Assembly (NCBI RefSeq): GCF_000147815.2
Contig: NC_015957.1
Coordinates: 6,882,001-6,946,000, forward strand
Origin: Streptomyces violaceusniger Tu 4113
Lineage (GTDB): Bacteria > Actinomycetota > Actinomycetes > Streptomycetales > Streptomycetaceae
Length of the DNA stretch: 64,000 bases
Reading direction: 5' to 3'
The position numbers were made by a program, and so were the translations under genes. The notes below the pieces were generated by a model. That model did not search any database, was not told where the DNA came from, and saw only the letters and a list, made by a program, of their open reading frames with translations. Shown one piece after another: positions 38,326 through 50,392 of the stretch. The stretch's first letter is position 1. Each line of letters starts with the position of its first letter.

Positions 38326-39180
38326 TCAGGACCCCGCGTGGAAGACCTCCGCGGCGTGCGCCGCCGCCCGGGCGCTCAGCAGGTCGTGGAGCCGGTGGAA
38401 GAGTTCGCCCGCGGCCACGCCGTTCCACTCCTCCGGAAGGAGTTCCAGGGGAAGTCCCGGGTCGCGGTAGGGCATGCGGCGCCACTGGGTCAGCATCGGC
38501 GCATAAGTGCGGAACGCCTCCAGCGGCGGTGGTTCGCGCCGTGTCACCGCGTCCAGGACGGGGCGGTACCGATCCAGGAAGTCCGCGTACAGGGCGGTGA
38601 GTTCGTCCAGGTCCCACCAGGAGCGGACCTTCTCCCGCAGGCCCCCGAAGGCGAAGTGGTCACCGGTGAAGATGTCGACGTACGCGGACAGTTCCCGGCG
38701 TTCCAGGGTGCGCCGGGTCTCGGCCGCCAGGTGCCCGGGGGCGATCCAGACGCCCGCCGCGGCGGTGCCGAAGCCCAGCCGGGTCAGGGTCGTCCGCAGT
38801 GCGTGCCGCTTCTCGCGCTCGGACTCGGGCACGGAGAACACGACGAGGACCCAGCCGTCCTCGCGGGACGCCCTGGCCTGCCGGAAGATGCGTACGTCCC
38901 CCTCGGCGAGGGTCTGCAGGGTGGAGTCGGCGAGGGAGTAGCCGGCGAGACCCTCGTGGCGCTCGCCGCGCAGCACATCGCGGCGTTTCATCCGGGAGAC
39001 CGAGGACCGCACGGCCCGGCTCTCCACGCCGAGGTCCGCCATGAGGCTGATCACCGAGGCGACCGAGAGCCAGTTGTGCTCGCCCCGGGCGTAGAGGCCG
39101 AAGACCGTGAGGATGAGCGGGGCGTGGCGGGACTCCCGCTCGCCCGCCGCGGTGGTGGCCGTTGTCGTCTGCGCGGTCAT
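38326..39180 (-). CDS. PaaX family transcriptional regulator
   Basis: A 284-residue repressor with the PaaX N-terminal winged helix (PLILTVFGLYARGEHNWLSV then RAVRSSVSRMKRRDVL), the central domain (WVLVVFSVPESEREKRHALR) and the C-terminal PaaX_C region (RMPYRDPGLPLELLPEEWNG). PaaX proteins sense aryl-CoA thioesters such as phenylacetyl-CoA. Located downstream of the RidA gene on the same strand and facing the cupin-thioesterase-ligase-monooxygenase operon, it probably represses that operon until the aryl-CoA made by the ligase accumulates. ATG at 39180 is chosen on domain start. Confidence 0.92.
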   Translation of the reverse strand: MTAQTTTATTAAGERESRHAPLILTVFGLYARGEHNWLSVASVISLMADLGVESRAVRSSVSRMKRRDVLRGERHEGLAGYSLADSTLQTLAEGDVRIFRQARASREDGWVLVVFSVPESEREKRHALRTTLTRLGFGTAAAGVWIAPGHLAAETRRTLERRELSAYVDIFTGDHFAFGGLREKVRSWWDLDELTALYADFLDRYRPVLDAVTRREPPPLEAFRTYAPMLTQWRRMPYRDPGLPLELLPEEWNGVAAGELFHRLHDLLSARAAAHAAEVFHAGS

Positions 39181-39320
39181 GTACCGGCACCCTAACGCCT
39201 GGCGCGGCGGAGTGATCACCTGCTCCCGGACCAGGCCCGGTGCGCCGCCGCACCGCGCGACCGGCCCGCCGGGGCCGTACCAGTCGCGACCGCCTCACCC
39301 CCTGGTGCGACGGGTCCGCC

Positions 39321-39761
39321 TCACCCCCCGGTGTGCGGCGCCACGAGTCGCTCCTCCGGGATCACGGCCACACCAAGGATCTCGATCATGGCCTCGGGCT
39401 GCCACAGCGCCGTGCAGCCGATGCCCGCCATGGCCGGGTAGACCGGCCCGGCGAGCTCGCGCCAGACCTTGCCGATCTCCTTGCCGTGCGCCTGGTAGTC
39501 GGGGATGTCGGTGAGGTGGATGGTCACGCTCACCAGGTCTTCGGGCTGTCCGCCGACCTCGCGCAGCGTGGTGAGCAGGTTGCCGAACGCCTGCCGGAAC
39601 TGTTCGACGATGCCGCCCGGAACGATCTTCATGTGGGCGTCGAGGGCGGTCTGTCCCCCCAGGTGGAGCGTGTTTCCGGCGAGTGTTCCGTGCGAGTAGC
39701 CGCTGGGTGTCGGCAGGGTGGTCGGGTTCACGGGGACGGGGGTCATGGGGACGGGGGTCAT
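39321..39761 (-). CDS. RidA family enamine/imine deaminase
   Basis: A 146-residue YjgF/YER057c/UK114-fold protein. The ATG at 39761 has GGAGG 4 bp before it; the next Met is 5 codons on. Fold marks are LHLGGQTALDAHMKIVPGGI, EQFRQAFGNLLTTLREVGG, VTIHLTDI and the end region PAMAGIGCTALWQPEAMIEI. The classical Arg-105 position is not the usual ARxxV: here GIGCTAL, so it may be a divergent RidA subfamily. Members hydrolyse enamines to ketones and ammonia. Beside the fused monooxygenase it could act on an enamine formed from an aminobenzoyl-CoA. Confidence 0.85.
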   Translation of the reverse strand: MTPVPMTPVPVNPTTLPTPSGYSHGTLAGNTLHLGGQTALDAHMKIVPGGIVEQFRQAFGNLLTTLREVGGQPEDLVSVTIHLTDIPDYQAHGKEIGKVWRELAGPVYPAMAGIGCTALWQPEAMIEILGVAVIPEERLVAPHTGG

Positions 39762-39795
39762 GGGGCCTCCGGCTCGGTTGCGTTGCGTCCTGTCC

Positions 39796-39845
39796 CACGG
39801 TCGGGCAGGTCCATCCAGGTGTATTGACTTTAATTGACGACCGTG
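39796..39845. promoter_or_regulatory. divergent promoter with inverted and direct repeats (PaaX operator candidate)
   Basis: CACGGTCG at 39796-39803 and CGACCGTG at 39838-39845 are exact inverted copies. Between them lie two TTGAC elements (39824-39828 and 39834-39838) in an AT-rich patch. The region separates RidA-PaaX (minus) from the cupin operon (plus). A candidate PaaX site, inferred from position. Confidence 0.5.
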
Positions 39846-39895
39846 AGAAACACGAGACATCGGATCCTGGTCCCCGACTGAACGGAGCCGACCCC

Positions 39896-40378
39896 ATGGA
39901 GCCCGACCTGAGCAAGTACCGCCTCGAAGGCGACAATTCGATGTACCGGCTGCCCAGTGGCATCGTCGCCCCCGTGGTGACGCGCGGCGGCCTGGAGAGC
40001 GGAAGCACCGCAGACTCGGGCGGTGCCGTCCGCGTCTCGGGCGTGAGCATCCAGCACACCCCGGCCACCCGCCTCTGGTTCGGCAAGGTCAGCAATGAAC
40101 CCGGCTACCGCTCGGTGACCCACCACCACGGCGAGGCCGAGACCGGCGGCTATGTCCTCTCCGGCCGGGCCCGCATCTACTTCGGCGAGCGGTTCGAGGA
40201 CTATGCCGACATGGAGGAGGGCGACTGGGTCTTCGTGCCGCCGTATCTGCCGCACGTGGAGTGCAACCTCTCCCGCACCAAGCCGCTGACCTGGATGACC
40301 ACCCGGACGCCGGAGAACATCGTGGTCAATCTGCCCGACGTCGCCGACGCCGAGCTGCGCGACTGGCTGGACCGCTGA
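39896..40378 (+). CDS. single-domain cupin protein
   Basis: A 160-residue cupin. Metal-binding motif 1 is THHHGEAETGGYVLSGRARIYFG (His-rich, with Glu), motif 2 is PPYLPHVECNL. It has the size and metal ligands of small non-heme iron dioxygenases or binding proteins but is not the two-cupin gentisate dioxygenase. First gene of an operon: its TGA overlaps the ATG of the thioesterase (TGATG). Possible role: cleavage or isomerisation of the ring product made by the monooxygenase. Function is not established. Confidence 0.8.
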   Translation: MEPDLSKYRLEGDNSMYRLPSGIVAPVVTRGGLESGSTADSGGAVRVSGVSIQHTPATRLWFGKVSNEPGYRSVTHHHGEAETGGYVLSGRARIYFGERFEDYADMEEGDWVFVPPYLPHVECNLSRTKPLTWMTTRTPENIVVNLPDVADAELRDWLDR

Positions 40379-41280
40379 TGTCCGGGACGCCCCCCACCTC
40401 GGCCGTCTTCACCGCCGCCGTCACCCTGAAGCCCGCCCAGCCCGAGCATTTCGACCTCGCCTTCACCGCCACGACCCAGCCCTGCCCCTGGCCCAAGGCA
40501 TACGGCGGCGATCTGGTCGCCCAGGCCGCGGCCGCGGCCATGCGGTCGGTGACCGACGGCAAGTCGCTGCACTCGATGCACAGTTACTTCCTGCGGCCCG
40601 CCGACATCGGGGCCGAGGTGCGCTACGAGGTGGAGGTGGTGCGCGACGGGCGCGGCTACAGCACCCGGCAGGTGCGCGGCTATCAGAACGGTAGAACGCT
40701 GTATGTGTGCCTGGCCGGCTTCGCGGCGGGCGAGGCCGGCGCGGCCTTCCACACCGCGTTCGCCGACGATGTGCCCGATCCGGAGACCCTGCCCGGCTCG
40801 GCGGAGTACCTCGCGGAGCGCGACGGCGGGTCCATGACCAAGGAGTCCAAGGCGTACTGGTCCGGCGGTCGCGGCTTCGACATGCGGCATGTCCCCGGCC
40901 CGGTCTATCTCACCGTCGAGGGAGAACGCCTGCCGCACCAGGCGGTCTGGCTGAGGCCCTTCGACCCGCTCCGCCCGGTCGACGGGCTGACCGACGCCCA
41001 ACGGGACCTGGCCGCCCTGGCGTACGTCTGCGACTACACGATCCTCGAACCCGTGCTGCGCGTGCTCGACCTGCCCTGGGCCAGGCCCGGGCTGGTCACC
41101 GCCAGCCTCGACCACGCGATGTGGTTCCACCGTCCGGGGCCGCTGGGCGACTGGCTGCTCTACGTCCAGGAAGCCGTCGCCGCCGACGCGGGCCGCGGCC
41201 TGGGCACGGGCCGCTTCTTCACCCGCGATCACCGCCACCTGGCAACCGTCGTCCAGGAGGGCCTGATCCGCCCCGCCTGA
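40378..41280 (+). CDS. acyl-CoA thioesterase (TesB-like, double hotdog)
   Basis: A 300-residue thioesterase. N-terminal hotdog: TTQPCPWPKAYGGDLVAQAA and LHSMHSYFLRPADIGAEVRY. C-terminal hotdog: LVTASLDHAMWFHRP then WLLYVQEAVAADAGRG with a late catalytic Gln region HLATVVQEGLIRP. Two-domain length (about 300) matches TesB. Starts inside the cupin stop codon, so the two are translationally coupled. It likely releases CoA from the hydroxylated aryl-CoA or an overflow intermediate. Confidence 0.9.
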   Translation: MSGTPPTSAVFTAAVTLKPAQPEHFDLAFTATTQPCPWPKAYGGDLVAQAAAAAMRSVTDGKSLHSMHSYFLRPADIGAEVRYEVEVVRDGRGYSTRQVRGYQNGRTLYVCLAGFAAGEAGAAFHTAFADDVPDPETLPGSAEYLAERDGGSMTKESKAYWSGGRGFDMRHVPGPVYLTVEGERLPHQAVWLRPFDPLRPVDGLTDAQRDLAALAYVCDYTILEPVLRVLDLPWARPGLVTASLDHAMWFHRPGPLGDWLLYVQEAVAADAGRGLGTGRFFTRDHRHLATVVQEGLIRPA

Positions 41281-41320
41281 CCCGCCGCGCTTCCCGGCGG
41301 GCTCCCGGAAGGACTCTTCC

Positions 41321-43003
41321 GTGACTCTTCCGCTCCCCCTCTCACCCTCCGCACACATCGACACCTTCACGCGCGACCGGCTGCCGCCCGCGCACCTGTG
41401 GCCGACGATCGAGTTCACGACGCCGGAACTGCGCTATCCGGACCGGCTCAACGCGGCGACCGAGCTCATCGACACCCCCACCGCGCTGTTCGGCCCCGGC
41501 CGTCCCGCCCTGCGCACCCCGGCCGGCGGAGTGTGCACATACGGCGAACTGCGCACCCGCGCCAATCAGGTCGCCCAGGTGCTCACCGAGGACCTCGGCC
41601 TGGTGCCGGGGCAGCGCGTCCTGCTGCGCTCGCCCAACAACCCGTGGACCGTCGCGGCCTGGCTCGGCGTCCTCAAGGCCGGTGGCGTCGTGGTGACCAC
41701 GATGGCCGCCCTGCGCGCCCGGGAGCTCACCCCGATCGCCGAACGCACCCGGCCGTCGATCGCCCTGGTGGACCACCGGTTCACCGAGGAGGTCCGCACG
41801 GTCCGGGACACCGTGCTGCCCGGGCTGACGGTGGTCGGGTACGGCGGTGGCGGCCCGGAGGATCTGGTGGCCAGGGCCACGGGCAAGTCCGGCGAGTTCA
41901 CCAACGTGGACACCGCCGCCGACGATGTCGCGCTCCTCGGCCCCACCTCGGGATCCACCGGCACCCCCAAGATCACCATGCACTTCCACCGCGACATCCT
42001 GTCCAGCGACAACACCTTCGGCCGCCATACCCTGGGCCTGGTATCGGACGATCTGGTGGCCTGCACCGCTCCCCTGGCCTTCACCTTCGGCCTCGGCATG
42101 CTGGTCGTCTTCCCGCTGCGGGCCGGTGCCTGCGCCCTGCTGACGGAGTCCGCCACCCCTCCGCAGCTCGCGGAGATCGTGCGGCGGCACGGCGTCACCG
42201 TCCTGGCGACCGCGCCCACCGCCTACCGGGCGATCCTGCGCGAGGGGCGGGAACAGCAGCTCGCCGGGGTGCGGATCGGGGTTTCGGCGGGCGAGCACAT
42301 ACCCCGCACCACCTGGGAGGAGCTGCGGGATCGCATCGGCCTGAAGGTGGTCGACGGCATCGGCGCCACCGAGCTGCTGCACATCTTCATCTCCGCCGCC
42401 GGGGACGCCATCCGGCCCGGCGCCACGGGACAGGCGGTCCCCGGCTTCCGCGCCGCGATCCTCGGCACCGACGGCACGGAACTCGGCCCCGGAGAGCCGG
42501 GCAGACTCGGTGTCATCGGCCCGGTCGGCTGCCGCTACCTGGGTGGCGAACGACAGCGGGACTACGTCCTGGAGGGCTGGAACATCACCGGTGACATCTT
42601 CCACCGGGACGAGGACGGCTACTTCCACTACCACGCCCGCAGCGACAGCATGATCGTCTCCTCCGGGTACAACATCGGCGGCCCCGAGGTCGAATCCGCC
42701 ATCGACACCCACCCGGACGTCGTGGAATCCGCCGTCGTGGCCCGCCCCGACCCGGAGCGCGGCTCGGTCGTATGCGCCTTCGTGGTGCTGCGGGACGGCG
42801 TGCCCGGCGACGCGGCCAAGGTGAAGGAGATACAGGACCACGTCAAGCAGCTCCTGGCGCCCTACAAGTACCCGAGCGATGTGCGGTTCCAGGACGCCCT
42901 GCCGCGCAACACCAGTGGCAAACTGCAGCGTTTCAAGCTGCTGCGCGAGGTGCGCCAGGCCCATGACGACGAGCGGGCCACCGAGGCCGTCGCCGAGAGT
43001 TGA
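41321..43003 (+). CDS. aryl-CoA ligase (2-aminobenzoate/benzoate-CoA ligase family)
   Basis: An ATP-dependent acid-CoA ligase of 560 residues starting with GTG. AMP-binding loop: GPTSGSTGTPK at about 208-218. Motifs: DGIGATELLHIFISA (substrate/ATP motif), GWNITGDIFHRDEDGY, SGYNIGGPEVE and the catalytic Lys in LPRNTSGKLQRF (about 533). The ATELLHIF segment and length match the benzoate and 2-aminobenzoate-CoA ligase group rather than fatty acid ligases. It sits 40 bp after the thioesterase and 10 bp before the monooxygenase, providing its thioester substrate. Confidence 0.9.
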   Translation: MTLPLPLSPSAHIDTFTRDRLPPAHLWPTIEFTTPELRYPDRLNAATELIDTPTALFGPGRPALRTPAGGVCTYGELRTRANQVAQVLTEDLGLVPGQRVLLRSPNNPWTVAAWLGVLKAGGVVVTTMAALRARELTPIAERTRPSIALVDHRFTEEVRTVRDTVLPGLTVVGYGGGGPEDLVARATGKSGEFTNVDTAADDVALLGPTSGSTGTPKITMHFHRDILSSDNTFGRHTLGLVSDDLVACTAPLAFTFGLGMLVVFPLRAGACALLTESATPPQLAEIVRRHGVTVLATAPTAYRAILREGREQQLAGVRIGVSAGEHIPRTTWEELRDRIGLKVVDGIGATELLHIFISAAGDAIRPGATGQAVPGFRAAILGTDGTELGPGEPGRLGVIGPVGCRYLGGERQRDYVLEGWNITGDIFHRDEDGYFHYHARSDSMIVSSGYNIGGPEVESAIDTHPDVVESAVVARPDPERGSVVCAFVVLRDGVPGDAAKVKEIQDHVKQLLAPYKYPSDVRFQDALPRNTSGKLQRFKLLREVRQAHDDERATEAVAES

Positions 43004-43013
43004 GAGGAACCCC

Positions 43014-45401
43014 GTGAACATCGCGATCATCGGCGGCGGTCCCGGCGGGCTGTACTTCGCGGCCCTGATGAAACAGCTCGACCCCGCCCACGAGATCACC
43101 GTCTGGGAACGCAACGCCCCCGACGACACGTTCGGCTTCGGCGTCGTGTTCTCCGACGAGACGCTCGGCGGCATCGAGAACGCCGACACCACCATCGCCG
43201 AGGCCATGGCCCGGCGCTTCGCCCGCTGGACCGACATCGACATCCACTACCGGGGCGAGAGCCACACCGTCGGCGGCCAGGGCTTCGCCGCCATGAGCCG
43301 CAAGGAGCTGCTCCGCCTGCTCCAGGAGCGCTGCCGTGACCTCGGCGTCACCCTGCGCTTCTCGACCGTCGCGCCGGACACCGAGTGGCTGCGCGCGTCG
43401 TACGACCTGGTGGTGGGGGCCGACGGGGTCAACTCCTCGGTGCGGGCGGCCCACGCGGACGTCTTCCGCCCCACCCTGGACCGCCGGCACAGCAAGTACA
43501 TGTGGCTCGGCACGGACCGGGTCTTCGAGGCGTTCCAGTTCTTCGTCGAGCAGACCGAATGGGGGGTCGTGCAGGTGCACGGCTACCCCTACTCCGACAC
43601 CGGCTCCACCTTCATCGTCGAGATGCACGAGGACGTCTGGCGGCGGGCCGGTTTCGACGCCACCGACCGGGCCGACGGCGCACCGGGCGCCTCCGACGAG
43701 CGGGCCGTCGCGCGCGTCCGCGAGCTTTTCGCCGACGCGCTCGACGGCCACCGGCTGTTCGCCAACAACTCCAAGTGGCTGAACTTCACGACCGTACGCA
43801 ACGAGCGCTGGCACCACGGCAACCTCGTGCTCATCGGGGACGCCGCCCACAGCGCGCACTTCTCCATCGGCTCGGGCACCAAGCTGGCGATGGAGGACGC
43901 GCTCGCCCTCGCGGCCTGTCTGCACGAACACCCGGTCGCCGAGCGGGCGTTGACCGCTTATGAGGCCGAGCGGCGCCCGGTCGTGGAGTCCACCCAGCGG
44001 GCGGCGCAGGGCTCGCTGGAGTGGTTCGAGAACATCGGGATGTACGCCCGCCAGGAGCCGACCCAGTTCTGCTTCAACCTGCTGACCCGCTCCCGCCGCA
44101 TCACCTACGACAACCTGCGCACCCGCGACCCCGACTTCGCCGACCAGGTCGACACCGCCTTCGCCGCCGCGCAGGGCCTCGACACGGTGGCACCGGCGAT
44201 GTTCCAGCCGTACCGGCTGGGGCGGCTGGAGCTGAAGAACCGGGTGATCGTCTCGCCGATGGACATGTACTCCGCGGTCGACGGCGTACCCGGCGACTTC
44301 CACCTCGTCCACCTCGGCTCCAAGGCCATGGGCGGCGCCGGACTGGTGATGACCGAGATGGTGTGCGTCTCGCCCGAGGGCCGCATCACACCCGGCTGCA
44401 CGGGCCTGTGGAACGGCGAGCAGCGCGATTCCTGGCGGCGGATCGTGTCCTACGTCCATGAGCGGAGCACCGCCCGCATCGGCCTCCAGCTCGGCCACTC
44501 GGGCCGCAAGGGCTCGACCCGGCTGATGTGGGAGGGCATGGACGAACCGCTGCCGGAGGGCAACTGGGACACCGTCGGCCCGTCCGCGCTGCCGTACGGC
44601 CCCGGCTGCGCGGTTCCGCGCGAGGTCACCCGCGCGGATATGGACCGGATCGCCGCGGACTTCGTCGCCGCCGCCCGCCGGGGTGCCGAGGCCGGGTTCG
44701 ACCTGCTCGAACTGCACTGCGCCCACGGCTACTTGCTGTCCTCCTTCCTCTCACCGGTCGCCAACCACCGCACCGACGCGTACGGCGGCCCGCTGGAGAA
44801 CCGGCTGCGTTTCCCCCTGGAGGTCTTCGACGCCGTGCGGGAGGCGTGGCCCGCGGAGCGGCCGGTGATCGTGCGCATCTCCGCCACCGACTGGGTGCCG
44901 GACGGCAACACCGAGCATGACGCCGTCGAGATCGCCCGCGCTTTCATCGCACACGGGGCGGACGCCATCGACGTGTCCTCCGGGCAGGTCACCAAGGACG
45001 AGCGCCCCGCCTTCGGCCGCTCCTACCAGACCCCGTTCGCCGACCGCATCCGCCATGAGGTCGCCGCCGCGACCGGCACCGCCGTCATCGCGGTCGGCGC
45101 GATCGCCTCGTACGACGACGTCAACTCCCTGCTGCTGGCGGGCCGCGCCGATCTGTGCGCCGTGGGGCGCACCCATCTGTACGACCCGCACTGGACGCTG
45201 CACGCGGCGGCCGAACAGGAGTACCGGGGCCCGGGCGCCGAGTGGCCGGTGCCGTTCGGCGCGGGCCGCCGCAAGCCCCCGGCCGCGCGCACCGACGCCG
45301 TACGGCCCCGGCTGTCCCTGCTCCGGTCCGACCCCGCCGACCAGGCCGTTCATCTGCGCTGGACCCCGGCCCCGGCCCCGGCACCCGCGCCCGTTTCCTG
45401 A
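43014..45401 (+). CDS. fused FAD monooxygenase / Old Yellow Enzyme reductase acting on aryl-CoA
   Basis: A 795-residue fusion, start GTG 43014 after AGAGGA. Residues 1-385 form an FAD hydroxylase (IAIIGGGPGGLYFAAL, DG in VVGADGVNSSVR, GD in VLIGDAAHSAHFSIGSG). From about 390 an FMN barrel follows (LGRLELKNRVIVSPMDMYSA, QLGHSGRKG, HCAHGYLLSSFLSPVANHRT, GRTHLYDPHW). This architecture is that of 2-aminobenzoyl-CoA monooxygenase/reductase of Azoarcus and the salicylyl-CoA 5-hydroxylase/oxidoreductase annotation. The first domain hydroxylates the ring, the second hydrogenates it. The Pro-Ala tail PAPAPAPAPVS is unusual. With the ligase it forms the committed step of the operon. Confidence 0.93.
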   Translation: MNIAIIGGGPGGLYFAALMKQLDPAHEITVWERNAPDDTFGFGVVFSDETLGGIENADTTIAEAMARRFARWTDIDIHYRGESHTVGGQGFAAMSRKELLRLLQERCRDLGVTLRFSTVAPDTEWLRASYDLVVGADGVNSSVRAAHADVFRPTLDRRHSKYMWLGTDRVFEAFQFFVEQTEWGVVQVHGYPYSDTGSTFIVEMHEDVWRRAGFDATDRADGAPGASDERAVARVRELFADALDGHRLFANNSKWLNFTTVRNERWHHGNLVLIGDAAHSAHFSIGSGTKLAMEDALALAACLHEHPVAERALTAYEAERRPVVESTQRAAQGSLEWFENIGMYARQEPTQFCFNLLTRSRRITYDNLRTRDPDFADQVDTAFAAAQGLDTVAPAMFQPYRLGRLELKNRVIVSPMDMYSAVDGVPGDFHLVHLGSKAMGGAGLVMTEMVCVSPEGRITPGCTGLWNGEQRDSWRRIVSYVHERSTARIGLQLGHSGRKGSTRLMWEGMDEPLPEGNWDTVGPSALPYGPGCAVPREVTRADMDRIAADFVAAARRGAEAGFDLLELHCAHGYLLSSFLSPVANHRTDAYGGPLENRLRFPLEVFDAVREAWPAERPVIVRISATDWVPDGNTEHDAVEIARAFIAHGADAIDVSSGQVTKDERPAFGRSYQTPFADRIRHEVAAATGTAVIAVGAIASYDDVNSLLLAGRADLCAVGRTHLYDPHWTLHAAAEQEYRGPGAEWPVPFGAGRRKPPAARTDAVRPRLSLLRSDPADQAVHLRWTPAPAPAPAPVS

Positions 45402-45438: not shown

Positions 45439-46614
45439 TCAGTCCGTCGCCACCGCCCGGTAGGGGCGGAAGAAGGCGCGCAGCTCCTCCGCGTAGAGCT
45501 CGGGCTCCTCGAACGGCGCGAAGTGTCCGCCGCGCGCGGGCTCGGTCACCCGCACGACGTTCGCCACGCGCTCCAGCCACTTCCGCGGCGGGCGCACGAT
45601 GTCGCCGCGGAAGAGCGAGAAACCGGACGGCACCTCGACCCGGCGGGCGTGCTGCTCGGGCGGGATCGCGGCGTTGGCGTGGTACATGCGCATCGACGAG
45701 CCGATCGTGCCCGTGAGCCAGTACAGCGTGACGTTCGTGAGGATCTCGTCCTTGGTGAAGCACCGCTCGATGTCACCGTCGCAGTCGCTCCACGAACGGA
45801 GCTTCTCGACGATCCACGCGGCGAGCCCGACCGGTGAGTCGGTCAGCCCGAAGGCGGCGGTCTGCGGCTTGGTGCGGTGCATGGCGGCGTAGGCGCCCTC
45901 GGCCGCGCCCCAGGCGGTGACCTCTTCGAACCAGGCACGCTCCTCGGGCGTGAGGTCCGCCGGGTCGCCGGTGAAGACGGGCAGGCCGCCGTCCATGCGG
46001 TGCACGGCCACGACCCGGTCGGGGTGGTCGAGCCCGAGGTAGCGGCTCACATGGCTGCCGATGTCCCCGCCCGCCGCGCCGAACCGCTCATAGCCGAGGA
46101 CGTCCATCAGCTCCGCCCACAGCCCGGCGACGGCGATGGAGTTCAGCGGCGGGCCGGTGGGCCGGTCGGAGTAGCCGTAGCCCGGCACGTCGGGCACGAC
46201 CACGTCGAACGCGTCGGCGGGGTCGGCGCCGTGCGCGCCGGGGTCGGTGAGGAGCGGGATGACCTTCGCATAGCGCCAGAACGAGTCCGGCCAGCCGTGG
46301 CTGAGGACCAGCGGCAGGGCGGGCCCGGCCGGGGCGGCGGCCCGGACGTGGGCGAAGTGGATCCCGAGGCCGCCGAGCCGGACGCGGAAGCGGGGCAGCC
46401 GGGCGAGCGCCGCCTCCTGCGCCGGCCAGTCGAACTCCTCCGCCCAGTAGGCGACGAGTTCGCGGAGGTAGTCGAGGTCGGTCCCCAGCGACCACCCGGC
46501 GTCCTCGGGCGCGTCCGGCCAGCGGGTCGCGCGCAGCCGCGCCCGGAGGTCCTCGAGCGCCGCGGGTGCGGTCTGCGGGGTGAACGGCTCGGGGCGGGGC
46601 GCGGCATCCGGCAT
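45439..46614 (-). CDS. epoxide hydrolase family protein
   Basis: A 391-residue alpha/beta hydrolase with an EHN-type N-terminus (APAALEDLRARLRATRW). HGWPDS gives the oxyanion region (about 106-111) and the nucleophile is Asp-184 in AAGGDIGSHVSRYL; most relatives have GGDWG, so Ile here may shape the pocket. A lid Tyr is in LYWLTGTIGSSMRMY and the late His in GGHFAPFEEPE. ATG at 46614 chosen; ribosome site is weak. Convergent with the monooxygenase gene. A paralog of the one at 11649-12806. Confidence 0.88.
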   Translation of the reverse strand: MPDAAPRPEPFTPQTAPAALEDLRARLRATRWPDAPEDAGWSLGTDLDYLRELVAYWAEEFDWPAQEAALARLPRFRVRLGGLGIHFAHVRAAAPAGPALPLVLSHGWPDSFWRYAKVIPLLTDPGAHGADPADAFDVVVPDVPGYGYSDRPTGPPLNSIAVAGLWAELMDVLGYERFGAAGGDIGSHVSRYLGLDHPDRVVAVHRMDGGLPVFTGDPADLTPEERAWFEEVTAWGAAEGAYAAMHRTKPQTAAFGLTDSPVGLAAWIVEKLRSWSDCDGDIERCFTKDEILTNVTLYWLTGTIGSSMRMYHANAAIPPEQHARRVEVPSGFSLFRGDIVRPPRKWLERVANVVRVTEPARGGHFAPFEEPELYAEELRAFFRPYRAVATD

Positions 46615-46665
46615 GGCACGTACCCTACAAGCCGCGCCACGCCTCTCCGCCGACACGCTGGGCAC

Positions 46666-48819
46666 CTAGTCGCCGGTCAACCCCGGTTTCCGCAACTCCT
46701 GCCGCAGCACCGGAGCCAGCGCCTCGACGTAGGTCTCGGCCAGGTGGCTCTCGTCGCGGTAGACGAAGGTGTCGCCCACGGCCACGGGGCACCCGCCCGA
46801 CCGGGGGCACAGCCACGGCTTCGGATCGACCACGGCGGCACCGGCGCGGCGGGCGCCCTGCCGGTTGGCCTCCCGGCGGGTGGGATCCTTGACGGCGTCG
46901 CGCTGGTCCGGCTCGCAGCCCCGCAGCCGCAGGGGTCGGCTCGCCGCGCACTCGACGGGATCGTCCTTCGGCCATGGGTTGTCGAGCAGTACGGCCACAT
47001 GGTCCGCGGCGCGGGCCAGTTGCCGGTAGACGCGTTCGTATCCCGCGGCCCACTCCCGCAGCGGGTCCCGCAGGGGCCGCACCGATGTGCCCGCTTCGGA
47101 GGAGGAGGCCACGACCAGCATCGGGTGCAGCCGCTCGATCCGCTTCAGCGCCTCCTTGCGCCAGGTGTCGCACGCCTCGTACGGCCGGTGGCCGTTGACG
47201 ATGGTGATGTCGGCGGTTTTGCAGGACGACTTGGTCAGCGACACCAGCTTCCAGCCGTACCGGCGGCTCAGCTTCTCCAGCGCCGGGAACCACTGCGCGG
47301 CGTGGGAGTCCCCATAGAGGACGACGACCTTGTCGGAGGTCCGGTCCCCGTACACGCAGTCGGGCGACCGGGTGGCGGTGTAGTTCACGTGGCAGCCGTC
47401 GCGGTAGACGGCCGACCGCTTCTTCTTGATGTCGGTGAGCGGCGGTGTCAGGTTGCGTGGCAGCCCGGTGGCGGCCGTGGCGATGAGGCCGGTGAGCCGG
47501 TACCGCGGGTCCTGTGCGGTGGTGAGGGCCTCGTTCAGCCCGGGAGCGCGGACGGCGGAGCTGATCGGCGGCGGGAAGGACGCCGCGACGAGGGCGGCGG
47601 ACACGACGGTGGCGGACAGGCAGAGGCCGAAGGCCACCGCGGCCGTGGGCTTTCGGCGCAGCGGGCCACGGAACCGGACCGGGTTCTCCACCAGGTGCAG
47701 GCTCACCCGTGCCAGCAGCAGGGCAACGGCGCACAGCGCGAGGTTCAGCCAGGTCCCGGCGGGCCGTCCCAGCGCCGTGGGGCCGATCATCAGCAGCGGC
47801 CAGTGCCACAGATACCAGCCGTACGACAGGTCGCCCACCCATGCCGCGGGGCGCACGGCGAGCAGCCGGGAGGCGGCGGACGGAGACGTGCGGCACCCGC
47901 CCGCGATCACCAGGGCCGCGCCCAGCACGGGCAGCAGCGCGAAGTGTCCGGGGAACGGGGTGTCGTCGTCGTACAGCACCGCCGACGCGGCGATGCCGGA
48001 CAGCCCCAGCCAGGTGCCAGCGGCGGACACGCCGCGGGGAAGCCGTGCCGGCGCCCCGGCGCCGAAGGCCAGCAGGCTTCCGGCGCCCAGTTCCCACAGC
48101 CGTGTGTGCGGGCCGAAGTACGCCCATGAGGGCGAGGTCTCGGCCACCTGGACACCCTGGACGTACGACACCAGGCACAGGGCACCCAGCGGCAGCGCCC
48201 GCAGCGCCGGTCGCCGGATGAGTTTCCAGCTTGCGAGCAGGAGGACGGGCCACAGGAGGTAGAACTGCTCCTCCACGGACAGCGACCAGAAGTGCTGGAA
48301 GGGCGACGGCGCGGTGTCCTCGTTCAGATAGTCGGCGCCCGAGACCGCCAGGTCGATGTTCATGACGTACAGGGCGCCGGCCAGCGCGTCGTGCATGAAC
48401 TCGGTGTAGCGGATCTTCGAGGCGAAGAGCCGGCAGCCCGCCATGGTGACCAGCGCGACCAGGGTCGCGAGCGGGAGGATGCGCACCGCGCGCCGGGCGT
48501 AGAAGCGCCGCAGGGAGAGCGATCCGGTGTGCTCGGCCTCCTTGAGCAGGCCCGCTGTGATCAGGAATCCGGAGATCACGAAGAAGACATCGACCCCGGC
48601 GTATCCCCCGGGGGCGTACGGGACTCCCGCGTGCGCGAGCACGACCAGGGTGACGGCCAGCCCGCGCAGCCCCTGGATGTCGCGCCGGAGGGCGGCCTTC
48701 GGCGTACGGCCGCCGGAGCGGGATACGTGGTGGCCGCACAGGCGCTGCGCCAGCCCCGTGACCCGGTGGCCCGGCGCCGTGTCCCGCTGGGGGCGGGCGG
48801 CCGTGGGAGTGTGCGTCAT
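46666..48819 (-). CDS. membrane acyltransferase-3 with C-terminal SGNH domain (OafA/YrhL-like)
   Basis: A 717-residue protein that likely O-acetylates an extracellular glycan. The N-terminal 55 residues are polar; then RRDIQGLRGLAVTLVVLAHA gives the acyltransferase-3 start with its catalytic His. VDVFFVISGFLITAGLL and FWSLSVEEQFYLLWPVLLL are family signatures. About 10-11 helices span 65-430. The extracytoplasmic SGNH domain holds VVLYGDSHAAQWFPAL (about 503) and the DxxH pair in YRDESHLAETY (about 691). This fusion type is used for peptidoglycan, teichoic acid or exopolysaccharide modification; the acceptor is unknown. Confidence 0.92.
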   Translation of the reverse strand: MTHTPTAARPQRDTAPGHRVTGLAQRLCGHHVSRSGGRTPKAALRRDIQGLRGLAVTLVVLAHAGVPYAPGGYAGVDVFFVISGFLITAGLLKEAEHTGSLSLRRFYARRAVRILPLATLVALVTMAGCRLFASKIRYTEFMHDALAGALYVMNIDLAVSGADYLNEDTAPSPFQHFWSLSVEEQFYLLWPVLLLASWKLIRRPALRALPLGALCLVSYVQGVQVAETSPSWAYFGPHTRLWELGAGSLLAFGAGAPARLPRGVSAAGTWLGLSGIAASAVLYDDDTPFPGHFALLPVLGAALVIAGGCRTSPSAASRLLAVRPAAWVGDLSYGWYLWHWPLLMIGPTALGRPAGTWLNLALCAVALLLARVSLHLVENPVRFRGPLRRKPTAAVAFGLCLSATVVSAALVAASFPPPISSAVRAPGLNEALTTAQDPRYRLTGLIATAATGLPRNLTPPLTDIKKKRSAVYRDGCHVNYTATRSPDCVYGDRTSDKVVVLYGDSHAAQWFPALEKLSRRYGWKLVSLTKSSCKTADITIVNGHRPYEACDTWRKEALKRIERLHPMLVVASSSEAGTSVRPLRDPLREWAAGYERVYRQLARAADHVAVLLDNPWPKDDPVECAASRPLRLRGCEPDQRDAVKDPTRREANRQGARRAGAAVVDPKPWLCPRSGGCPVAVGDTFVYRDESHLAETYVEALAPVLRQELRKPGLTGD

Positions 48820-49183
48820 ACCGTGAACTGTCCGCAGCACAGGGGGTGTTTCCGTGATGCGGAGCACACGAGACCGGGCCGACGGCGGAGCCTGGTGCGG
48901 GGAGCGCGCCGCGCCGGGCCCCTGCCGAGAGGTCCGGCGCGTGCGGTGGCTCGTCGCGGGCTCGGCCCCGGATCACACGAAGGCGCTCTGCCCGGTGATG
49001 GCCTTGCCGACGATGAGCGTGTTCATCGGGACTCCTTCGTGGATACCCCGGCCTTCAGTCCGGGGAGGAAACCAAGCTCCTGCGGAGCAGGGCAGGAAAG
49101 GCGAATCGCCGCCAGGGTGATTCGGTGTCTGCGGTCACCGGCCGACACCCATCCCTCACACGGGAGCTGATAGAGTGTGAGGT

Positions 49184-50392
49184 ATGGCGCAGCAGGTCAA
49201 GCGGGCGTTCAAGTACCGCTTTTACCCCTCGGACGAGCAGGCGGCTGAGCTGTCGCGCACGTTCGGCTGTGTCCGCCTCGTGTACAACAAGGCGTTGGAG
49301 GAGCGCACGCGGGCCTGGTACGGCGAGCAGCGCCGCATCTCCTACGTGCAGTCCTCCGCCGCGCTGACGCAGTGGAAGAAGAACGAGGAACTCGCCTTCC
49401 TGGCGGAGGTGTCCTCGGTCCCCCTCCAGCAGGCGCTGCGCCATCTTCAGACGGCGTTCGGGAACTTCTTCGCCCAGCGGGCCAAGTACCCGCGCTACAC
49501 GTCGCGGAAGACGTCCCGGGCCTCGGCCGAGTACACCCGCAGCGCCTTCACGTGGCGTGACGGGCGCCTGACCCTGGCGAAGACGGCCGGGCCGCTGGAC
49601 ATCCGCTGGTCCCGTCCCCTCCCGGAGGCTGCCGAGCCCACGACGGTGACGGCGTCCCGCGACGCCGCCGGACGCTGGTTCGTCTCCCTGCTCGTCGAGG
49701 ACACCATCACCCCGGCCCCCGCCACGAGTACGGCGGTCGGTATCGACGCCGGGGTCACCTCCCTGGTGACCCTCTCCACCGGGGAGAAGATCGCCAACCC
49801 CCGGCACGAACGGCGCGACCGGGCCCGCCTGGCGAAGGCGCAACGGGAGCTGTCCCGCAAGGCCAAGGGGTCCGCGAACCGGGAAAAGGCCCGCCGGAAG
49901 GTCGCCCGCGTGCACGCGCGGATCGCCGACCGGCGCCGCGACTTCCTGCACAAGCTGTCGACTCGTCTCGTCCGTGAGAACCAAACGGTCGTGATCGAGG
50001 ACCTCACCGTCCGTAACCTGCTGAAGAACGGCCGCCTGGCGCGCGCCATCTCGGATGCGGCGTGGACGGATCTGCGCATGATGCTGGAGTACAAGTGCGC
50101 CTGGTACGGGCGTGAACTTGTCACGGTCGACCGCTGGTTCCCCAGCTCGAAGCTGTGCGGAGCCTGCGGCACGGTCCGCGGGAAGCTGCCGCTGAACGTC
50201 CGTGAGTGGACGTGTGTCTGCGGCACTGTGCATGACCGCGATGTGAACGCGGCGCGCAATATCCTGGCCGCCGGGCTGGCGGTGTCTGCCTGTGGAGACG
50301 GTGTAAGACCTCAACGGGAGTCCTCCCGGACGGGGCGGTCGTCGATGAAGCAGGAACCCCAGCGGGCGACCGCTGGAATCCCCCGCCTTTAA
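49184..50392 (+). CDS. tnpB: RNA-guided endonuclease TnpB
   Basis: A 402-residue TnpB, ancestor type of Cas12. The N-terminal OrfB_IS605 helix-turn-helix is QVKRAFKYRFYPSDEQAAEL and FGCVRLVYNKALEERTRAWY. RuvC residues are Asp-187 in VGIDAGVTS, Glu in TVVIEDLTVRNLL (about 271) and Asp in TVHDRDVNAARNI (about 352). The zinc ribbon has CGAC and CVCG pairs. All catalytic residues are present, so it could be active. Expected function: cleaving DNA next to a target motif using an RNA from its own right end. The C-terminal 30 residues overlap the right-end hairpins. Confidence 0.95.
   Translation: MAQQVKRAFKYRFYPSDEQAAELSRTFGCVRLVYNKALEERTRAWYGEQRRISYVQSSAALTQWKKNEELAFLAEVSSVPLQQALRHLQTAFGNFFAQRAKYPRYTSRKTSRASAEYTRSAFTWRDGRLTLAKTAGPLDIRWSRPLPEAAEPTTVTASRDAAGRWFVSLLVEDTITPAPATSTAVGIDAGVTSLVTLSTGEKIANPRHERRDRARLAKAQRELSRKAKGSANREKARRKVARVHARIADRRRDFLHKLSTRLVRENQTVVIEDLTVRNLLKNGRLARAISDAAWTDLRMMLEYKCAWYGRELVTVDRWFPSSKLCGACGTVRGKLPLNVREWTCVCGTVHDRDVNAARNILAAGLAVSACGDGVRPQRESSRTGRSSMKQEPQRATAGIPRL

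Follow-up and report, generated by a model that had tools for sequence, protein, structure and literature searches.

A conserved actinobacterial gene module in Streptomyces violaceusniger that very probably degrades anthranilate as its CoA ester, with apparent opening of the reduced ring by a small metal enzyme

A 64-kb stretch of the 11.1-Mb genome of Streptomyces violaceusniger Tu 4113 (contig NC_015957.1, positions 6,882,001–6,946,000; hereafter the window) carries a compact cluster of six genes that encode a PaaX-family regulator, a RidA/YjgF-family protein, a small cupin, a TesB-like thioesterase, an aryl-coenzyme A (CoA) ligase and a fusion of a flavin adenine dinucleotide (FAD)-dependent monooxygenase with an old yellow enzyme (OYE). 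This type of module, which we call type A, is conserved across many actinobacteria and very probably degrades anthranilate as the CoA ester; it seems to open the reduced ring by means of a small metal enzyme in place of the enzymes of beta-oxidation. Our preferred reading, to which we assign a probability of roughly 0.45, is that type A represents a tryptophan/anthranilate module in which anthranilate would be degraded as CoA esters via a reduced analogue of the gentisate pathway. Anthranilate is a meeting point of tryptophan, quinaldine, alkylquinolone signals and some indole compounds in bacterial degradation, and four aerobic routes for its breakdown are listed in a review (PMC4539516).

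Results

Anthranilate as the probable substrate

A previous interpretation of the window made from the DNA letters alone (the sequence-only reading) had taken the cluster for a CoA-dependent anthranilate module. Our data uphold this view: both halves of the fusion are present, the linked ligase is 64% identical to the assayed anthranilate-CoA ligase encoded on plasmid pAL1 of Arthrobacter sp. Rue61a, and RidA and the cupin are co-conserved with the fusion. We consider anthranilate very probably the substrate of the type A module. The S. violaceusniger genome encodes a kynureninase that scores above the family cut-off and is located, far from the cluster, beside a gene whose product matches tryptophan dioxygenase at 35% identity; a search of the same genome for gentisate 1,2-dioxygenase (TIGR02272) yielded no match at E ≤ 0.001. 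Strain Rue61a, in which quinaldine is converted to anthranilate and pAL1 is the quinaldine plasmid, can use anthranilate for growth; it fails to grow on salicylate, gentisate or 5-hydroxyanthranilate, converting the last only by cometabolism (PMC3534580). Collectively, these observations make anthranilate the likely substrate, and the failure of Rue61a to grow on the three other aromatic acids argues for a route in which the ring is dearomatised. The same source reports anthranilate-CoA ligase activity for both the pAL1 ligase and its chromosomal paralogue in Escherichia coli extracts (PMC3534580), and we propose, from the likeness of the proteins, that the S. violaceusniger enzyme is an anthranilate-CoA ligase as well. 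Neighboring genes of other type A clusters also yield anthranilate: one cluster is accompanied by the gene for the alkylquinolone dioxygenase AqdC1, another is adjoined by genes for tryptophan 2,3-dioxygenase and an aminotransferase-fold protein matching kynureninase at 37%, and a further one by a kynureninase gene.

Conservation of the module

For comparison we retained the best 80 of 575 related stretches obtained in a scan of a genome collection, so that the sample is skewed to close relatives. Using tblastn, and with some of the stretches being short, we found the genes for RidA, the cupin and TesB in all 80 loci, that for the ligase in 79 and that for PaaX in 66. A gene of the fumarylacetoacetate hydrolase (FAH) family, a frequent feature of the related clusters that the sequence-only reading had missed, is present in 55 loci, and a small thioesterase distinct from TesB in 33. 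Beta-oxidation genes are rare near type A fusions (short-chain dehydrogenase/reductase [SDR] in 6/80, enoyl-CoA hydratase in 3/80, 3-hydroxyacyl-CoA dehydrogenase in 3/80 and acyl-CoA dehydrogenase in 2/80 loci). The S. violaceusniger cluster contains no linked gene for an acyl-CoA dehydrogenase, an enoyl-CoA hydratase or an SDR, in keeping with the earlier remark that the beta-oxidation genes of the Azoarcus type are absent from it. When called open reading frames (ORFs) were grouped by a cruder clustering, every family outside the module was confined to at most 15 of the 80 loci, a lower figure than tblastn had given for the small thioesterase.

Another set of genomes, sampled separately, gave cupin matches in 27 of the 392 that belong to the genus and, at E ≤ 1e-20, in 7 of 396 from the phylum. 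Sixty genomes were searched with the fusion. Of these, 28 encode a close cupin (S. violaceusniger itself not counted, 26 belong to the genus, the other two being G085 and G278), another 28, taken from printed lists, belong to the genus but show no cupin match, and four encode distant cupins. All 28 close-cupin genomes possess a fusion that is 72–98% identical to that of S. violaceusniger and is positioned 2587–2766 bases from the cupin gene. Where the cupin match is missing, 26 of the 28 genomes hold only fusions of at most 68% identity and two hold none, while the four phylum-level genomes with distant cupins (42–48% identity) gave no fusion match at E ≤ 1e-120. The joint conservation of RidA and cupin with the fusion, on which the sequence-only reading had staked its interpretation, was hence seen in 80 of 80 loci, with a close fusion no further than 2.8 kb from the cupin in 28 of 28 genomes.

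The fusion enzyme and its three neighborhoods

Among the homologues of the fusion, that of S. niphimycinicus came out as the nearest (97% identity). The fusion scores 1233.8 bits against the NCBIfam model NF006101 (bifunctional salicylyl-CoA 5-hydroxylase/oxidoreductase; cut-off 1078). This name leaves the substrate undecided because homologues from three types of gene neighborhood bear it: type A, as in S. violaceusniger; type B, with beta-oxidation genes and mostly RidA; and type C, with a gentisate dioxygenase and no RidA. The 21 type B loci (L003, L095, L115, L116, L118, L121–L124, L133–L137, L148–L154) all encode an enoyl-CoA hydratase, 19 encode an acyl-CoA dehydrogenase and 18 a RidA protein, often together with an SDR and a 3-hydroxyacyl-CoA dehydrogenase; we take them to resemble the clusters of Azoarcus evansii. 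In two of the three type B loci that are devoid of RidA (L118 and L154) the stretch stops near the cluster; the third (L095, Streptomyces BHT-5-2) extends past the acyl-CoA dehydrogenase gene and has none there. Type C comprises three loci (L006 from Cupriavidus taiwanensis, L147 from Caballeronia SBC1 and L117 from Streptomyces G407), in which a bicupin relative of gentisate dioxygenase and a match to the small thioesterase lie beside the fusion; FAH is present in two of them and RidA in none within the stretch. When 49 selected fusions were placed in a quick tree, all 33 rows of type A, S. violaceusniger included, fell on one side of a branch (Shimodaira-Hasegawa-like approximate likelihood ratio test, 97), type B needs three label changes, at least two of them forced, and type C is represented by two rows, one of which sits on a long branch.

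Both halves of the S. violaceusniger fusion are intact, and its OYE part has the two histidines with which old yellow enzymes bind their substrate (H568 and H571, HxxH). The first of these is a histidine in 85/85 type A, 18/18 type B and 3/3 unassigned rows and a glutamine in 3/3 type C rows, while the second is a histidine in every aligned fusion. From these residues, and with just three type C rows, the difference may mean that fusions acting on anthranilate have retained ring reduction, whereas it is changed in those of the gentisate route. The glutamine is also a possible marker by which NF006101 could be split into reducing and non-reducing members. Independently of this, a type A locus from Tsukamurella (L005) and the type C locus of Caballeronia SBC1 both lie near genes for indolepyruvate oxidoreductase alpha and beta subunits, a carbon-nitrogen hydrolase and a cyclase-family protein, which suggests a common upper pathway. 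Two genomes of the genus (L119 and L120) contain a match to the monooxygenase half only (53–55% identity), and no module partner was found in the 20-kb stretch.

The partner proteins

The cupin displays a metal-binding motif of three histidines and one glutamate (H76, H78, E82 and H120), and these columns are invariant in 32/32 cluster cupins and in 59/59 sequences of a wider alignment. It matched no NCBIfam family; its matches to sequences in the PDB are weak and mainly concern bicupins of the oxalate-decarboxylase type. A first structural model had a mean predicted local distance difference test (pLDDT) value of 49.8; a second one, built from 59 sequences, reached 84.7.

In canonical RidA proteins, a catalytic arginine binds the carboxylate of the substrate. 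This residue, part of a PAR(A/S) motif in four of five PDB alignments shown (3k0t, 3r0p, 8qok and 8qop; not 5v4f), is replaced by methionine in the S. violaceusniger protein (YPAMAGIG), and 12 type B RidA proteins that were examined carry methionine (11) or valine (1). We considered loss of the arginine as a special sign of the module, but this notion was weakened by the nine PF01042 proteins of the genome: by reading, only three of them (L138, L139 and L143) have an arginine near this position, and six, the cluster RidA included, lack it.

An aspartate (SLDHAMWF) and a glutamine (VQEG) of TesB, which we take to be the catalytic residues, are conserved in 85 of 86 sequences, the remaining one having a gap. 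The FAH gene is found in two settings, on the plus strand between the RidA and cupin genes in 33 of the 80 loci and on the minus strand between the PaaX and RidA genes in 22; six minus-strand FAH proteins that were compared are 40–43% identical to that of pAL1. The nearest NCBIfam match of the pAL1 protein is 2,4-didehydro-3-deoxy-L-rhamnonate hydrolase, presumably an acylpyruvase, at 191.5 bits and thus far under the cut-off of 500. The H/E pair and the E-E-D metal ligands of this family are conserved in 59–61 of 61 aligned FAH proteins.

Gene layout and regulatory region

The six genes were located at or near the positions given by the sequence-only reading (Table 1). The PaaX and RidA genes are transcribed divergently from the cupin-to-fusion genes, and the ATG of tesB overlaps the TGA of the cupin gene by one base. 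While the domain assignments exceed the Pfam gathering thresholds, the NCBIfam scores of PaaX, RidA, TesB and the ligase fall under the cut-offs of the nearest named families (for PaaX, 160.1 bits against TIGR02277, cut-off 264.55).

Table 1. Features of the type A cluster of S. violaceusniger Tu 4113 (positions within the window).
Feature	Position	Strand	Basis
PaaX-family transcriptional regulator, 284 aa	38326..39180	-	Three PaaX Pfam domains over gathering threshold
RidA/YjgF-family protein, 146 aa, ATG start at 39761	39321..39761	-	PF01042 over Pfam gathering threshold
Putative promoter/operator TTGACTTTAATTGACGACCGTG in the RidA/cupin divergent gap	39824..39845	+	Motif enrichment in related gaps
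Small single-domain cupin, 160 aa	39896..40378	+	Cupin_2 over Pfam gathering threshold; 3-His/1-Glu motif
TesB-like double-hotdog acyl-CoA thioesterase, 300 aa	40378..41280	+	Acyl-CoA thioesterase domains over Pfam gathering threshold
Aryl-CoA ligase, 560 aa, GTG start	41321..43003	+	AMP-binding domain over Pfam gathering threshold
FAD monooxygenase/OYE fusion, 795 aa, GTG start	43014..45401	+	Oxidored_FMN and FAD_binding_3 over Pfam gathering threshold

The gap between the divergent RidA and cupin genes contains the motif TTGAC-N6-TGACGACCGTG, which includes an imperfect dyad, TGACGACCGTGA. Of the 84 divergent gaps compared from related loci, two loci with another gene arrangement being omitted, 62 contain its 11-base core; this amounts to 62 sites in 15.7 kb, in comparison with 94 sites in the remaining 1.78 Mb of locus DNA, and the core was found in none of the 84 gaps after one base shuffle each. 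The motif was found by k-mer counting and counted on largely the same sequences, so that these numbers are descriptive. The extended motif occurs once in the entire genome and the bare core four times in the window. As to exact inverted repeats, no 6-base dyad recurs in more than two of 81 divergent gaps. A natural guess is that the motif serves as the operator of PaaX, which would then repress both the RidA transcript and the divergent transcript running from the cupin to the fusion gene.

Downstream of the fusion gene, and convergent with it, lies a gene judged by eye to encode an epoxide-hydrolase-like alpha/beta hydrolase (45439–46665, minus strand). We considered it as a substitute for FAH, but a matching ORF family is present in just 6 of the 80 loci, all of them without FAH. 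It is adjoined by an ORF that by eye resembles a membrane acyltransferase with an SGNH-like C-terminal part (46666–48867, minus strand), and a further ORF (49184–50392, plus strand), with CxxC motifs near its C-terminus, appears by eye to be of the TnpB type of IS200/IS605 elements.

Discussion

A proposed gentisate-like pathway with a reduced ring

The preferred scheme starts with the formation of anthraniloyl-CoA by the ligase, a reaction shown for the pAL1 enzyme. The fusion would then hydroxylate C5 and reduce the ring to 2-amino-5-oxocyclohex-1-ene-1-carboxyl-CoA, as reported for the Azoarcus enzyme; ring reduction by the fusion in this step is highly probable. In a third step, RidA, or hydrolysis aided by it, would free ammonia and give 2,5-dioxocyclohexanecarboxyl-CoA, in effect dihydro-gentisyl-CoA; deamination of the reduced CoA ester by RidA has in our estimate slightly better than even odds. 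TesB would release the acid and the metal-containing cupin would cut the C1–C2 bond with O2, in either order, to yield succinylpyruvate, although we put cleavage by the cupin at a little under even odds. Finally, an FAH-family acylpyruvase, presumably unlinked in S. violaceusniger, would split this compound into succinate and pyruvate. Because the ring-cleavage product would be devoid of a double bond, no cis-trans isomerase is needed. The scheme would employ every gene of the pAL1 version of the cluster, and it parallels type C, which likewise has a thioesterase and a cupin beside the fusion as well as FAH in two of its three loci.

In the Rue61a study, anthraniloyl-CoA is reported from anthranilate-grown cells, and CoA esters of acids with the formulas C7H7NO3 and C7H8O4 were found solely in such cells; its authors suggested that the latter is cyclohexanedione-carboxyl-CoA (PMC3534580). 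The sequence-only reading had RidA act on the enamine, TesB free the acid and the cupin act on that acid. We too infer these roles, with which the C7H8O4-CoA ester agrees, acid-quenched though it was; the part assigned to RidA is called into question by its missing catalytic arginine.

Several observations weigh against the scheme. Methionine occupies the position of the catalytic arginine in 85 of 86 type A RidA proteins, the remaining one being unparsed; since a CoA thioester has no free carboxylate, however, loss of the arginine may suit a RidA protein that acts on a CoA ester. The second cupin model has only generic cupin neighbors, and dimethylsulfoniopropionate lyase, polyketide cyclase, TM1459, quercetinase and isomerase cupins match it at similar scores; since these functions are mixed, the fold does not indicate dioxygenase activity. 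Gentisate and 3-hydroxyanthranilate dioxygenases are not among the 50 matches shown for either structure comparison, which excludes nothing. No linked FAH gene is present in the S. violaceusniger cluster or in 25 of the 80 loci, its closest relatives included, a few of these stretches being short; the FAH paralogues of S. violaceusniger lie elsewhere in the genome and share no more than 48% identity with the pAL1 protein. Furthermore, the small thioesterase found in 33 of the 80 type A loci (L015–L094) has no place in the scheme. As to the Rue61a metabolites, the samples in which C7H8O4-CoA was measured had been quenched with formic acid and taken up at pH 3.5, whereas the enaminone, as the authors point out, is not stable at pH values under 5; moreover, Rue61a has chromosomal paralogues, and a plasmid-free mutant still grows on anthranilate (PMC3534580). 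Formation of C7H8O4-CoA may therefore be chemical, and, given the acid quench and the growth of the mutant, the CoA-ester masses are not attributable to the pAL1 cluster alone. Lastly, we found in the literature no enzyme assays for steps downstream of the ligase in a type A cluster.

Alternative fates of anthraniloyl-CoA

The ring-reduced CoA ester could instead be finished by unlinked housekeeping beta-oxidation, with the cupin and TesB as proofreading or detoxifying helpers. Beta-oxidation genes do accompany the related fusions of the Azoarcus-like type B, and many unlinked genes of this kind are to be expected in an 11-Mb Streptomyces genome. We nevertheless regard this as unlikely: cupin, RidA and TesB genes accompany all 80 type A fusions (the cupin also in 28/28 genomes), matches to the four beta-oxidation genes of Paracoccus are each found near the fusion in at most 6 of 80 loci, and the 33 type A fusions group on one side of a tree branch. 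Rather improbable, in our judgment, is a retro-Claisen opening in which RidA and/or the cupin would tautomerise or deaminate the ester and FAH would hydrolyse the C1–C2 bond to 4-oxopimelate, with no second oxygenase step. Such a route would be in line with the ability of FAH-family enzymes to hydrolyse C–C bonds of dicarbonyl compounds and with the presence of non-oxygenases among the nearest cupin folds; yet the cupin is kept in the 25 loci without a linked FAH, and 4-oxopimelate would require enzymes from outside the cluster.

The ring might also stay aromatic, with the fusion producing 5-hydroxyanthraniloyl-CoA, TesB releasing 5-hydroxyanthranilate and the cupin cleaving this compound or gentisate derived from it. 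A degradation of anthranilate via 5-hydroxyanthranilate and gentisate to maleylpyruvate in Nocardia opaca (Cain, 1968) is cited in a review (PMC4539516), the C7H7NO3 CoA ester reported from Rue61a (PMC3534580) would fit, and monocupin ring-cleaving dioxygenases are known. Against this distinctly improbable route stand the growth tests with 5-hydroxyanthranilate and gentisate, uncontrolled for uptake in the Rue61a study (PMC3534580), the intact OYE histidine pair of type A and the ORF clustering of the 80 loci, in which no isomerase family recurs. Salicylate, finally, had been named as an alternative substrate by the sequence-only reading; the module would then convert salicylyl-CoA via gentisyl-CoA to gentisate. 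The fusion passes the cut-off of a family named for exactly this activity, and gentisate-dioxygenase-linked fusions do exist. We reject salicylate as the main substrate and hold such a module to be most improbable: the genome has no gentisate-dioxygenase match, RidA would be left without a role, the Rue61a study reports growth on neither salicylate nor gentisate and a pAL1 ligase active on anthranilate (PMC3534580), and the type C fusions differ in accompanying genes and in the reductase residue.

Were the preferred scheme, the reduced analogue of the gentisate pathway, to be true, a cupin and an FAH enzyme hitherto without assigned function would gain concrete roles, anthranilate- and salicylate-acting homologues within one broadly named family could be sorted more readily, and a candidate gene basis would be at hand for the old report of a gentisate-like breakdown of anthranilate in Nocardia. 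Tentatively, a further aerobic anthranilate route could then be recognized, namely a dihydro-gentisate pathway with a new monocupin dioxygenase cutting the C1–C2 bond, an acylpyruvase and an arginine-less RidA subgroup for CoA-ester enamines.

Comparison with known systems

The sequence-only reading had considered the cluster a possibly undescribed variant, a view that has to be revised: it already exists, with an assayed ligase, on plasmid pAL1 (NC_009453; ligase ARUE_113p00220 and fusion ARUE_113p00230; PMC3534580). What is undescribed are the lower steps, for which a full-text literature search that covered few subscription papers and not the founding Azoarcus and pAL1 papers found no enzyme assignment in actinobacteria. 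The order and orientations of the PaaX, RidA, cupin, TesB, ligase and fusion genes are the same in both organisms, and the proteins are 73% (fusion), 71% (RidA), 64% (ligase and cupin), 58% (TesB) and 48% (PaaX) identical. The pAL1 order is PaaX and RidA, followed divergently by FAH, cupin, TesB, ligase and fusion; its FAH gene between the RidA and cupin genes and a second PaaX gene after the fusion are extras that the S. violaceusniger cluster does not have.

The sdgABCD salicylate pathway of Streptomyces WA46 reportedly also activates an ortho-substituted benzoate with CoA and hydroxylates it at position 5, and is said to end in a gentisate 1,2-dioxygenase, unlike in S. violaceusniger, whose genome lacks a match to this enzyme. 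Type C likewise combines the fusion with a thioesterase match and a cupin, as type A does; however, its cupin is a bicupin relative of gentisate dioxygenase, RidA is missing and a glutamine replaces the first OYE histidine. With the 2-aminobenzoyl-CoA pathway of Azoarcus evansii and other type B clusters (e.g., on Paracoccus pTAV3 and in Streptomyces loci L116 and L121–L124), type A has the ligase, the fusion and usually RidA in common. Some type B clusters also encode a small cupin, one with no detectable similarity to the type A protein at E 1e-4. In place of the beta-oxidation genes of type B, the type A clusters encode TesB, a small cupin of their own and, in many cases, FAH.

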